Assembly: GCA_949297125.1 (NCBI GenBank)
Contig: CASFRS010000005.1
Location: 1 to 64,000 of the forward strand
Origin: an uncultured Bacteroidales bacterium
Lineage (GTDB): Bacteria; Bacteroidota; Bacteroidia; Bacteroidales; G3-4614
Reading direction: 5' to 3'
DNA length: 64,000 nt
Below, one piece after another: positions 51,483-57,620 of this stretch (its first letter is position 1; every line of letters starts with the position of its first letter). Below the pieces are notes generated by a model that was given only the letters and a program-made list of their open reading frames with translations, was not told where the DNA came from and ran no database searches. Position numbers and translations under genes: made by a program.

Positions 51483-53810
51483 ATGACAAAAAAGATAACC
51501 TCCTTCATAACGGCAGCAATAATGCTCCTGTGTACGGAAATGACCGCGCAGACGGAAATGTTCCAATGGAAGACATACACACCGTACGGAACACCCGGTC
51601 AGATTTCGGAAACACGTACCGGCGTCTACTTCACATCGGACGGCTATCTATACCTCTACGGAAAAAGCGACAACTCCCTGTCAGGGCTGACACGCGACAA
51701 CTCCCTGTCCGACTCCGACATAAAACTTATAGAATACAACTACGAAAAAGACCTGCTGGTAATAGCCTACCGGAACAGCAACATAGACCTCCTCACGGGC
51801 GGGCGCATATACAACATACCGTACATAAAGGAAGCCGTAATGACAGGGTCTAAAACCATAAACAATATCAACATCATACCCGAAAGGGATGAAATATACA
51901 TTTCAACCGATTTCGGCGTGGTAATAATAAACAGCAAAAAATACGAAATAAAGAACAGTTTCATTCTCGGGCGCAAGATATACGATGCCGCATGCCATAA
52001 CGACATCTACTACATAAGCGATGCGGAAAAAGGGGTAATGGAGTGCAGCGACGAAGAGATACCTTACAAGTACGAGAACTGGAGACAGTCGGCCGACCTC
52101 ACCCACATAGCGAAAAAAATAGTAATCAACGACGGGGCGATATGGACGGTCAGCACGGCCGCAATAACCAGGTATATCCCGGGCGTAACAAATGAAAAGG
52201 TGGAGTTCGGCACTTTCGACTTCATAAAAAGAACCCCCGGAAACGAAATATACGCATACCACGGCGGAAAAATATCGGTATACAACTCCGACGGGACCAA
52301 AAAGGGAGAAACTGAACTGGACCGGTACACCGACGATATTCCGGCAGACATAAGCAACGGCAACCGTACAGGAACATACTGGGGAATAAGCGGCAAAGGG
52401 ATAAAATCGTACAGGATATCCGACGGTACGGTAACCCTTACGGCCGACGTACCGGTAAAAGACAGGCCATCGGTAACCGTTCCCTACACACTCGCCGTGC
52501 AGGGAAAATCGCTCTACTGCATCCCCACGGGAATAAACACTGACTATGAAGACGAGAGCCTCACGGCCAACATAGCGAGAATGAACAATTACAGGTGGGA
52601 AAACATCCTGTGCGACGACATACCGTCCATAAACAACAAAAACACCGGAAAATTCGGCCTTACCTCCGACATAGTCATATCCCCGCACGATGAAAACACC
52701 ATATACGTAGGGACATGGTTCGACGGCCTTTACCGTTTCAGGAACAACCGTTACGATGCTGTATGGAACTATACCAACAGCCCCATAACCGGCATGTTCG
52801 ACAACTATGTAAATATGATAGGCGCACTTGCTTTCGATTCCGGCAACAACCTGTGGATGACAAGTTACAGTCCCGACTGCGGGCTGCTTGCCATGAAACC
52901 CGACGGTACATTCGTAACATTCGCAAACAGCGACCTGAAAGACCGAAAATACTTTACGCAGATACTGATACCGGAACAGAGCGGGACAAAATGGATAATC
53001 CACGGGGGGGCATCGGGTTTCATATATGCGCACAACCATAACGGCACGCTCGAAAACCAGGGCGATGATACATACCGCATGTTCACCACCTTCACCGACC
53101 AGGACAACCGCAGCATAGACGGTTCAAGGTTTTACTGCGCGGCAGAAGACCGCAGCGGCAGGATATGGATAGGAACGGACCGCGGGCCCATACTCCTCAA
53201 CCGGCCCGACAATTTCCGCAACAGCAACTTCAGCTGTTACGTTATAAAGATACCGCGCAACGACGGGACCAATACGGCCGACCTTCTGCTCAATGCCGAA
53301 GTGATACGCGCCATAGAACCGGACGATGCAGGCAACATATGGCTGGGGACCGAAACTTCAGGGGCATACCTTGTAAGCGAAGACGGACAAACCACCATAT
53401 ACCACTTCACTACTGAAAACTCGGTACTCCCGTCGGACAAGATATACGACGTAAAAGTAAAGCACGATACGGGCGAAGTCTTCTTCGCAACCGAAAAAGG
53501 GCTTGTATCGTTCAGGGCGGAAGCAGCCGAAGCACAGGAGAATTACGACAACGTCTACGCCTTCCCCAACCCTGTACGCCCGGAATACACCGGGGTGATA
53601 ACGGTAACGGGGCTCGAATTCAACTCGCTTGTAAAGATAACCGACACGGCCGGAAACCTCATCTATCAGAACTATTCGCAAGGAGGGCAGATAGTATGGG
53701 ACGGCAACGGACCCGACGGCCGTCGGGTAAAGAGCGGAATCTACTACGTATGGATGTCCAACAGCGAAAACAAGGACGGCAAGGTAGCCAAGATTGCCGT
53801 AATAAACTGA
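51483..53810 (+). CDS. porZ: Type IX secretion system protein PorZ-like
   Basis: The 775-residue protein has a signal peptide, two beta-propeller domains and a C-terminal sorting-type domain; size and layout match P. gingivalis PorZ (about 776 residues). Early marks are YNYEKDLLVIAYRNSNIDLL and PERDEIYISTDFGVVIIN; late, propeller-like regulator motifs RSGRIWIGTDRGPILL and AGNIWLGTETSGAYL. The tail (FPNPVRPEYTGVITVTGL, then GRRVKSGIYYVWM) is a type IX-like domain. PorZ is part of the cell-surface attachment complex that links cargo to A-LPS. No other por gene is in the window. Confidence 0.85.
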   Translation: MTKKITSFITAAIMLLCTEMTAQTEMFQWKTYTPYGTPGQISETRTGVYFTSDGYLYLYGKSDNSLSGLTRDNSLSDSDIKLIEYNYEKDLLVIAYRNSNIDLLTGGRIYNIPYIKEAVMTGSKTINNINIIPERDEIYISTDFGVVIINSKKYEIKNSFILGRKIYDAACHNDIYYISDAEKGVMECSDEEIPYKYENWRQSADLTHIAKKIVINDGAIWTVSTAAITRYIPGVTNEKVEFGTFDFIKRTPGNEIYAYHGGKISVYNSDGTKKGETELDRYTDDIPADISNGNRTGTYWGISGKGIKSYRISDGTVTLTADVPVKDRPSVTVPYTLAVQGKSLYCIPTGINTDYEDESLTANIARMNNYRWENILCDDIPSINNKNTGKFGLTSDIVISPHDENTIYVGTWFDGLYRFRNNRYDAVWNYTNSPITGMFDNYVNMIGALAFDSGNNLWMTSYSPDCGLLAMKPDGTFVTFANSDLKDRKYFTQILIPEQSGTKWIIHGGASGFIYAHNHNGTLENQGDDTYRMFTTFTDQDNRSIDGSRFYCAAEDRSGRIWIGTDRGPILLNRPDNFRNSNFSCYVIKIPRNDGTNTADLLLNAEVIRAIEPDDAGNIWLGTETSGAYLVSEDGQTTIYHFTTENSVLPSDKIYDVKVKHDTGEVFFATEKGLVSFRAEAAEAQENYDNVYAFPNPVRPEYTGVITVTGLEFNSLVKITDTAGNLIYQNYSQGGQIVWDGNGPDGRRVKSGIYYVWMSNSENKDGKVAKIAVIN

Positions 53811-55001: not shown

Positions 55002-55622
55002 ATGAAAAAGTGGATAACCGGCATACTACTCACCTTATCTGCGCTCGGCACGGCAAAAGGGGCCGACGGAAATGCCAATCCATACCTCGACAGGCACTCT
55101 ATATTCAGCCGCCCGTATCTGTCGGTAATAGAAACCGGCGATACCGTAATAACCATAAACATGCAACAGATAGTCTGCATGCCGGAGTACAAGTTCAAGA
55201 ACAGAAGAGACGAAAAGTTTTACTGGAAAACGGTAAGGGACGTAAAAAAGACCCTGCCGTACGCTAAAATGGTACGTGCTGCAATAATAGAGACATACGA
55301 GTATATACAGACCATCCCCGAGGACCAGCGCGAAGCTCACCTTAAACAGATGGAAAAGGATATATTCAAGGAGTACCGTCCGGTATTGAAAGAGTTCACA
55401 TATTCGCAGGCAAAGATGCTAATACTGCTTATTGACCGCGAATGCAACCAGACCTCCTTCAATATACTGAAATCTTTTCTCGGAGGGTTCAGGGCCAGGT
55501 TCTGGCAAATGTTCGGAGGAATGTTCGGACTGAGCCTCAAAAAAGACTACGAACCCGAAAAAAGAGAACGCGACAGGATAATAGAACGCGTGTGCATACT
55601 TGTAGAATCGGGTATGCTATGA
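55002..55622 (+). CDS. DUF4294 domain protein
   Basis: The 206-residue protein has a signal peptide (MKKWITGILLTLSALGTAKG) and the DUF4294 core (NMQQIVCMPEYKFKNRRDE, ILLIDRECNQTSFNILKSFLGGFRARFWQ, in shorter pieces: LIDRECNQTS, LKSFLGGFRA). DUF4294 is found mainly in Bacteroidota and its role is unknown; the signal peptide puts it in the periplasm or envelope. Its TGA stop overlaps the convergent methyltransferase by six bases. Confidence 0.85.
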   Translation: MKKWITGILLTLSALGTAKGADGNANPYLDRHSIFSRPYLSVIETGDTVITINMQQIVCMPEYKFKNRRDEKFYWKTVRDVKKTLPYAKMVRAAIIETYEYIQTIPEDQREAHLKQMEKDIFKEYRPVLKEFTYSQAKMLILLIDRECNQTSFNILKSFLGGFRARFWQMFGGMFGLSLKKDYEPEKRERDRIIERVCILVESGML

Positions 55623-56150
55623 ATGCAGACCGCAGAAAAAGTGCCATATCAGGATTCCGGCAGCAACCGAAACATTGAGCGAATGCTTTGTGCCGAACTG
55701 CGGTATTTCAACAGAACCGTCGCACAAGTCAACAACCTCCTGCCCCACCCCCTTCACTTCATTGCCGAGTACAATGGCATAACGGGTATTCCTGTCCACA
55801 TTAAAACCGTCCAGCATTATGCTTCCCTCGGTCTGTTCGGCAGCGTAAACCGAAAACCCTTCGCCTTTCAGAAGTTCGACAGCCCGGCCGGTCTCTTCCA
55901 TATAAACCCAGTCCACGCTGTTCTCTGCCCCGAGCGCAGTTTTGTGTATTTCAGCATCAGGAGGTGTGGCGGTAATACCGCAAAGGTATATTTTCTCTAC
56001 CCTGAAAGCGTCGGAACTGCGGAATACCGAACCTATATTGTTCAGGCTCCTTACATTATCCAGCACTATAACCAGCGGAATTTTCTCTGCAGCCTTGAAT
56101 TCGCTGCACGACAGGCGGTTCATTTCAAGAACAGAAAGTTTTCTTCCCAT
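55617..56150 (-). CDS. TrmH/SpoU family RNA 2'-O-methyltransferase
   Basis: The 177-residue SPOUT-fold protein has the three SpoU motifs: NVRSLNNIGSVFRSSDAF, a central IVLGNEVKGV, and a knot motif IPQFGTKHSLNVSVAAGI. It lacks the extra N-terminal substrate domain of longer TrmH forms, which is common for small tRNA/rRNA methyltransferases. It faces the origin-like region, with a TATATTTG box (56177-56170) 20 bases before its start. Confidence 0.9.
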   Translation of the reverse strand: MGRKLSVLEMNRLSCSEFKAAEKIPLVIVLDNVRSLNNIGSVFRSSDAFRVEKIYLCGITATPPDAEIHKTALGAENSVDWVYMEETGRAVELLKGEGFSVYAAEQTEGSIMLDGFNVDRNTRYAIVLGNEVKGVGQEVVDLCDGSVEIPQFGTKHSLNVSVAAGILIWHFFCGLHS

Positions 56151-56684
56151 TTGTCCAATAACTTTGGTGCAAATATAAACTATCTCCCGCAGCTAATATA
56201 AACTCCCCTCCTTTAAAAAAGGATAACTCCTGTACGGCTTTTTCAAAGCTATCAACATAACCCGGAAACAACATGTTGATATCGTTTGATAACTTATTGG
56301 AAAAAAACAATAGAAAAACAGACATAAAGACAGAAAAAAATATATAGGGCGAAATTTTCAAAAGGCAGCCGTATAATTACACTTTTGTTTTTTAATACTT
56401 ATCCACATCTTAAAACAGGGTTATTATCGGGCCAACAAAAAAATTTAATTAACTTTGCGCTTTATCAAACATCTGTTGATAACTGTATGAATCAATTATA
56501 AATCAAAAATTTAATATGTTGATAATATAACAAGAACAAACGTTATGATATTGATAACGGTAAAATAAAGGAAAAGGCAAAAAAGTTATCAATGCTATCA
56601 ACAGCATATTATCATCATCATTTATTTACATTAAAAAATATATTATTCTTATTTGGTTGTTGATTGTCGATAAAGCACGTACAA
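56151..56684. other. Candidate chromosomal replication origin (oriC)
   Basis: A 534-base, strongly AT-rich, non-coding segment with many DnaA-box-like 9-mers. A canonical TTATCCACA is at 56399-56407. TTATCAACA-type boxes lie on the minus strand at 56482-56474 and 56525-56517. Near matches are at 56249 (CTATCAACA), 56282-56274 (ATATCAACA), 56292-56284 (TTATCAAAC), 56462 (TTATCAAAC), 56557-56549 (TTATCAATA), 56586 (TTATCAATG) and 56595 (CTATCAACA). An almost pure A/T stretch at 56604-56655 with ATCATCATCA would suit a duplex-unwinding element. TAACTTTG at 56450-56457 could be the nadA promoter -7 box. recF and the DciA-type gene are 28 kb away; dnaA is not in the window. Origin identity is inferred from box density and composition. 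Confidence 0.75.
56399..56407 (+). promoter_or_regulatory. Canonical DnaA box
   Basis: TTATCCACA, an exact match to the consensus DnaA box, in the origin candidate. Confidence 0.7.
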
Positions 56685-57620
56685 ATGAACTTGACTGAAA
56701 AAATACTCGAACTTAAAAAAGAGAAGAATGCCGTAATACTTGCCCACTATTACCAGCGCGATGAAATACAGCAGGTGGCCGACCATATAGGCGACAGCCT
56801 TGCACTTGCCCAGATAGCGGCCAAGTGCGACTGCGACATACTTGTCATGTGCGGGGTGAATTTTATGGGAGAGACTGCCAAAATTCTGTCTCCCCGTAAA
56901 AAGGTACTGTTGCCCGACAATACGGCAGGGTGCTCCCTGGCAGACAGCTGCAACGCCGTGGATTTGCAGAAATTCAAGGAGAAATACCCCGGATATACCG
57001 TAATATCTTATGTAAACACAACGGCCGAAGTAAAGGCTCTGACCGATATAGTGGTAACCTCTTCCAATGCCCGGCAGATAGTCGAATCCATGCCTGCCGG
57101 CGAAAAGATAATATTCGGTCCGGACAGGAATCTCGGAAACTATATAAAAGGCGTTACAGGGCGCGACATGGTCATATGGGACGGCGCATGCCACGTGCAT
57201 GAACAGTTTTCCGCTGCCGGAATAAAGGAACTTAAAGAAAAGAATCCCGATGCGGAAGTGCTGGCTCATCCCGAATGTAACAGGAGTGTACTCGATGTAG
57301 CCGATGTTGTAGGTTCCACCGCGGCTTTGCTCAAACATTCGGTTTCCTCACCGTCCGTAAAATTCATAGTTGCAACCGAACCCGGAATTCTTTTTGAAAT
57401 GAAGAACAGGTGTCCGGGAAAAGAGTTTATACCGGCTCCGTCGGAAGAAGGAGGGTGCGCGTGCAACATATGTTCTTATATGAAGCAGAATACTCTTGAG
57501 AAACTGTATGAAGCTCTCGAATATGAAAGGTATGAAGTAACGTTGCCGGAAGAACTGAGAGCGAAAGCGGAAGTACCCATACGCCGCATGTTGGAAATAT
57601 CGGAAAAGTTGAAACTGTAA
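56685..57620 (+). CDS. nadA: Quinolinate synthase
   Basis: The 311-residue enzyme condenses iminoaspartate with dihydroxyacetone phosphate to quinolinate in NAD synthesis. Three cluster cysteines are expected in MCGVNFMGETAK, in HPECN and in GGCACNIC. The N-terminal NAVILAHYYQRDEIQQ is diagnostic. I start at the ATG at 56685 (MNLTEKILEL), not at an upstream TTG, because the family N-terminus begins there. No nadB or nadC lies in the window. It reads away from the origin candidate. Confidence 0.95.
   Translation: MNLTEKILELKKEKNAVILAHYYQRDEIQQVADHIGDSLALAQIAAKCDCDILVMCGVNFMGETAKILSPRKKVLLPDNTAGCSLADSCNAVDLQKFKEKYPGYTVISYVNTTAEVKALTDIVVTSSNARQIVESMPAGEKIIFGPDRNLGNYIKGVTGRDMVIWDGACHVHEQFSAAGIKELKEKNPDAEVLAHPECNRSVLDVADVVGSTAALLKHSVSSPSVKFIVATEPGILFEMKNRCPGKEFIPAPSEEGGCACNICSYMKQNTLEKLYEALEYERYEVTLPEELRAKAEVPIRRMLEISEKLKL

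Follow-up and report, generated by a model that had tools for sequence, protein, structure and literature searches.

The intergenic region at positions 56151–56687 of the analysed DNA, a 64-kb window that forms the start of a 112.7-kb contig, was identified from its sequence as the probable single chromosomal origin of replication (oriC) of this gut Bacteroidales bacterium, a reading to which we assign a probability of roughly 0.92. The origin reading, offered in a preliminary description of the window, was supported because several kinds of evidence agree independently: a DnaA-box cluster that has no counterpart in the genome, the persistence of such a cluster upstream of nadA across most relatives, the polarity of rRNA operons, the GC-skew minimum of a relative assembled as a single contig (G195), and the layout of a candidate unwinding element. 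The source genome comprises 2.14 Mb in 27 contigs and is 99.8% complete; among named organisms, Candidatus Caccoplasma merdipullorum is the closest, with 86% identity in NadA.

DnaA boxes and candidate unwinding element

As first described, the segment holds no gene and constitutes the gap between a TrmH/RlmB-family gene (trmH-like) and nadA (Table 1). Both genes diverge from it, and this divergent pairing was found again in many families. A full-length gene for the type IX secretion protein PorZ lies at window positions 51483–53810 (NF052228, E=2e-174), ~2.3 kb left of the predicted origin.

Table 1. Coordinates of the predicted origin, its neighbours and its component elements within the window.
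Feature	Positions	Strand	Remarks
TrmH/RlmB-family RNA methyltransferase gene, left neighbour	55617–56150	−	NCBIfam TIGR00186 E=1e-30, under curated cut-off
Predicted oriC, entire intergenic region	56151–56687	.	Genome's densest DnaA-box cluster, 27% GC; conserved in relatives
DnaA box CTATCAACA, 1 mismatch, left subcluster	56249–56257	+
DnaA box ATATCAACA, 1 mismatch, left subcluster	56274–56282	−	TGTT(G/A)ATA part kept in genus
TTATCAAAC, 2 mismatches, next after ATATCAACA in left subcluster	56284–56292	−
DnaA box TTATCCACA, exact	56399–56407	+	TTAT(C/T)CACAT kept in 7/7 genus members
TAACTTTG, promoter-like, toward nadA, directly ahead of DnaA box	56450–56457	+	Invariant in genus
Inverted box pair TTATCAAAC (+) / TTATCAACA (exact, 56474–56482, −)	56462–56482	.
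DnaA box TTATCAACA, exact	56517–56525	−	TGTTGAT kept in 7/7 genus members
DnaA box TTATCAATA, 1 mismatch	56549–56557	−
Tandem abutting DnaA boxes TTATCAATG (2 mismatches) + CTATCAACA (1 mismatch), putative unwinding-element platform	56586–56603	+	Block conserved in genus
4-nt spacer GCAT	56604–56607	+	Spacer length in relatives peaks sharply at 4
Probable duplex-unwinding region, AT-rich	56606–56665	.	Nearest-neighbour stability scan
Five DnaA-trio-like triplets ATT ATC ATC ATC ATT	56608–56622	+	Opposite strand 3'-TAA TAG TAG TAG TAA-5'
DnaA box TTATCGACA, 1 mismatch, nadA edge	56665–56673	−
nadA, quinolinate synthase gene, right neighbour	56688–57620	+	NCBIfam NF006878 E=1.4e-132, over cut-off

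Over 56249–56673 (~425 bp), nine boxes were found at no more than one mismatch (three of them exact) and 16 at no more than two, on both strands and at irregular spacing. The preliminary figure of ten boxes in ~350 bp holds if two-mismatch boxes are counted and fails at up to one mismatch, where the count is nine over the interval just given; the single exact TTATCCACA (56399, +) and the two exact TTATCAACA (56474 and 56517, both −) were recovered as reported. Each of the other non-overlapping 534-bp parts of the window contained at most two boxes. The genome-wide scan that had been proposed was run on 2.136 of the 2.140 Mb with boxes at up to one mismatch, and it placed predicted oriC at the top of the 500-bp intervals with nine boxes (three exact), followed by a runner-up with five. 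Equal box density in random AT-rich DNA had been named as evidence against an origin and was not what the genome showed; among 66 AT-rich 500-bp intervals, predicted oriC had eight boxes and one other had five, with the remaining 64 having 0–3.

Boxes were likewise enriched in relatives. The 500 bp upstream of 110 Bacteroidales nadA loci contained a mean of 4.6 boxes, compared with 0.52 expected from the own composition of each upstream region, and the density peak was restricted to −500..0. Among the boxes common across loci were TTATCAACA and, in other families, TTATCTACA, and individual boxes were kept across the seven genus members. An arrangement in which the trmH-like gene and nadA point away from intervening boxes was encountered repeatedly across Bacteroidales families; at Muribaculaceae-type loci, a methyltransferase homologue is found downstream of nadA, with the boxes still upstream of nadA.

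The almost pure A/T block noted earlier was also present, comprising two stretches with four G/C per 40 bp, and the 60 bp at 56606 were the second least stable in the whole 64 kb according to the nearest-neighbour stability scan. The basal unwinding system (BUS) is defined by a DnaA box, a spacer of 0–16 bp and, on the opposite strand, three or more NAN triplets (PMC8287927). This layout was found here, with the box at 56595, the 4-nt spacer and five triplets, whereas the BUS trinucleotide consensus 3'-GAT-5' was replaced by 3'-TAG-5'; among relatives, CTA triplets on the box strand are uncommon (triplet tally: 8). The element thus appears to resemble the BUS in layout, and full membership of that system is not claimed. 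A strict search for at least four [CT]T[AT] triplets (3'-GAT-5' type) returned none; it was the published NAN rule that revealed the element, and the relaxed triplet rule of that work could have accepted an element of this type (PMC8287927).

With polarity toward nadA, the box–4-nt–trio layout was observed at 50 of 106 loci, compared with seven on the reverse strand and 6.25 (maximum 11) in simulation, and a redundancy-reduced set gave 29 of 78 loci versus 3.4 simulated. At 43 of these 50 loci, the element falls in bins 76–125 bp upstream of nadA. The specific pattern occurs once in the source genome (2.136 of 2.140 Mb). At many other loci the triplets are TTG, and the 4-nt spacer is unchanged. 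At L137, L147, L158, L180 and other Muribaculaceae-type loci, TTG repeats (opposite strand 3'-AAC-5') replace the ATC repeats and are located ~90–125 bp upstream of nadA, after a DnaA box and the 4-nt spacer. The box–spacer–triplet pattern was discarded as an origin finder when used alone, as it was detected in 45 of 297 genomes of the order, at 52 places, little above the reversed control; seven of these places, including predicted oriC, lie ~70–125 bp upstream of nadA.

Strand composition and rRNA operon polarity

GC skew was computed contig-wise, since the division of the genome into 27 contigs affords no whole-replicon curve. Left of the segment, 4-fold sites gave GC skews of −0.156 (plus-strand genes) and −0.062 (minus-strand genes), with T-A skews of −0.36 and −0.31, respectively. 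The corresponding GC skews to the right were −0.02 and +0.03, with a T-A skew of ~−0.05. Both raw and gene-strand-corrected 4-fold counts therefore agreed with the preliminary estimate of negative skew on the left and approximately zero on the right; the right flank is neutral, not G-rich, and the direction of the switch is nonetheless the right one for an origin.

When 291 positions on all contigs were evaluated, the strongest negative-to-positive switch was located at 64 kb, on the same contig as predicted oriC. Position 56 kb ranked sixth, with a value of 0.166 compared with 0.162 for the best position on any other contig, so that the five positions ranking above it also belong to this contig. 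The skew supports the neighbourhood of 56 kb and not the exact base, since the best corrected change point was found at 64.6–67.7 kb, i.e. 8–11 kb right of predicted oriC. The raw cumulative-skew minimum anticipated at ~56.4 kb was not seen, as the contig curve is flat from 56 kb and lowest at 97.6 kb. That raw minimum was rejected as an origin mark because it is misleading, being confounded by gene direction.

The source genome being fragmented, replicon-level polarity was derived from relatives. The direction of rRNA operons was compared with two candidate origins, the nadA site and dnaA, in 13 single-contig Bacteroidales genomes. In the six with at least four boxes before nadA, the operons were directed away from this site in 22 of 22 cases; a random point would fit the polarity in all six with a probability of ~1.4e-4, calculated as a product of fractions with the genomes taken as independent. 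Among the other seven genomes, whose nadA has three boxes or fewer upstream, an origin at nadA fitted only 20 of 31 operons. From this difference it follows that origin polarity tracks the boxes, not nadA.

Five of the single-contig genomes merit separate description. In G099 and G256 (loci L268 and L264), rRNA polarity fits nadA and no box at up to one mismatch is found within 500 bp upstream, so the origin may have divergent boxes or be situated nearby. In G239 and G198 (loci L272 and L266), nadA lacks boxes and the polarity fits nadA for 0 of 4 and 6 of 12 operons, which suggests that nadA and the origin have separated. G195, a genome of 3.288 Mb, has six exact boxes clustered at 2.6657–2.6660 Mb, and its dnaA is at 0.6 kb. 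The sampled GC skew of this genome has its minimum at ~2.605 Mb and its maximum at ~1.14–1.2 Mb, which places the boxes ~60 kb from the sampled minimum, with 2.580–2.625 Mb unsampled.

Promoter-like element and alternative readings

Within predicted oriC, TAACTTTG, which we take to resemble the Bacteroidota −7 promoter element (TAnnTTTG), was present in 73 of 109 nadA upstream regions compared with 1 of 100 control stretches. Across loci it is clustered at −275 to −226 and is almost always forward. The genus keeps TTTAATTAACTTTG and the DnaA box after it almost unchanged at window positions 56443–56470, and the form ATTTATTAACTTTGCAGTTATCTACA recurs in other families. Judging by these motifs, both forms are promoter-like, with a transcript start that would coincide with the DnaA box. 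The element within the origin probably drives nadA and, as a conjecture, may be under DnaA control. Scans for sigma-70 promoters and terminators gave chance-level results.

These features lend themselves to another reading, namely that the boxes serve nadA and the trmH-like gene as a promoter controlled by DnaA or as a site of DnaA titration, with the origin elsewhere. It would account for a conserved promoter-like sequence that often stands right ahead of a DnaA box and for the divergent genes on both sides. We nevertheless consider it improbable: the dependence of polarity on boxes rather than on nadA counts against a mere nadA promoter, rRNA polarity and skew put the origin here in box-bearing relatives, an unwinding-type element is present, and the lack of any comparable cluster elsewhere would leave the chromosome with no recognisable origin.

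An origin beside dnaA, with the nadA-side cluster secondary, would follow the general rule in many phyla, and many assemblies among the relatives are merely rotated to begin at dnaA. In this genome, one complete dnaA gene is present, on a different contig (G000:C1:2701-3186), at least 58 kb from predicted oriC, and its product is intact, with ATPase and box-binding domains (PF08299 and TIGR00362 over cut-off). The absence of dnaA from the region, claimed at the outset, was thereby verified, and the genome-wide count detected no box cluster near the gene. In the six relatives with at least four boxes, dnaA as the origin fits only 6 of 22 rRNA operons, so that their rRNA polarity and skew already largely refute this possibility, which we regard as very unlikely. 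The description of an origin separated from dnaA was correct, and such separation is unsurprising because oriC is commonly distant from dnaA in Bacteroidetes, according to a Prevotella genome paper (PMC4755523).

A structured leader RNA, a riboswitch or an NAD-regulator operator, in place of an origin, was judged to be equally far from probable. The nadA leader would be ~220 nt long and the inverted box pair is operator-like, but no Rfam family matched (one weak match at E=1 fell far under the gathering score), the boxes span 425 bp on both strands with irregular spacing, and in genomes whose nadA has no boxes, nadA ceases to match rRNA polarity reliably. Plasmid and phage origins also carry box clusters, yet an integrated origin of this kind is the least credible alternative, given that no DNA match was found in plasmid or phage collections and that the housekeeping neighbours are conserved across families.

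Predicted mechanism and relation to known origins

Taking 56151–56687 as oriC, we infer DnaA binding, melting, helicase loading and initiation from the known system. DnaA produced from its distant gene would occupy the boxes spread across ~425 bp, load onto the tandem boxes at 56586–56603, and extend past the 4-nt spacer along one strand of the triplet run at 56608–56622. The AT-rich DNA adjoining nadA would then melt, helicase would be loaded there, and two forks would depart in opposite directions.

The Escherichia coli oriC is located between gidA and mioC, away from dnaA, with boxes on both strands and transcription units on both sides; its neighbours are different, and the likeness is one of related organisation only. 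The Bacillus subtilis origin is situated at dnaA. Its BUS and those of its relatives are similar to the element described here in having tandem DnaA boxes, a short spacer (~4 bp average) and three or more trinucleotides on one strand, each with A in the middle, followed by AT-rich DNA, but differ in the trinucleotide, which is 3'-GAT-5' there, 3'-TAG-5' here, and 3'-AAC-5' or 3'-AAT-5' in other families (PMC8287927). The oriC predicted for chromosome I of Prevotella intermedia OMA14 and the DoriC Bacteroidetes origins likewise combine several DnaA boxes with a GC-skew transition and a distant dnaA (PMC4755523); the passage describing them names no neighbouring genes, whereas here the trmH-like/nadA address is given and is shown to be conserved across families.

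In the literature searched, no oriC paired with quinolinate synthase was found, nor were a conserved nadA address, a variant unwinding element or a promoter inside the origin, and curated origin databases may hold predictions at this address. We know of no experimentally mapped Bacteroidales origin. More tentatively, and with the odds against the full proposal, Bacteroidales might possess an ancestral trmH-like/nadA origin with variant trinucleotides (3'-TAG-5' and 3'-AAC-5' versus the known 3'-GAT-5') and a DnaA-gated promoter that couples an NAD-synthesis gene to initiation.

The candidate origin is short, exactly bounded and at a conserved address, and experiments on it could be done in a relative that grows in culture. 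Growth rates estimated from metagenome read depth also become more accurate once the origin is placed correctly; in assemblies rotated to dnaA, the zero point is wrong. How strictly DnaA reads single-stranded DNA could, in turn, be probed with the variant trinucleotides.
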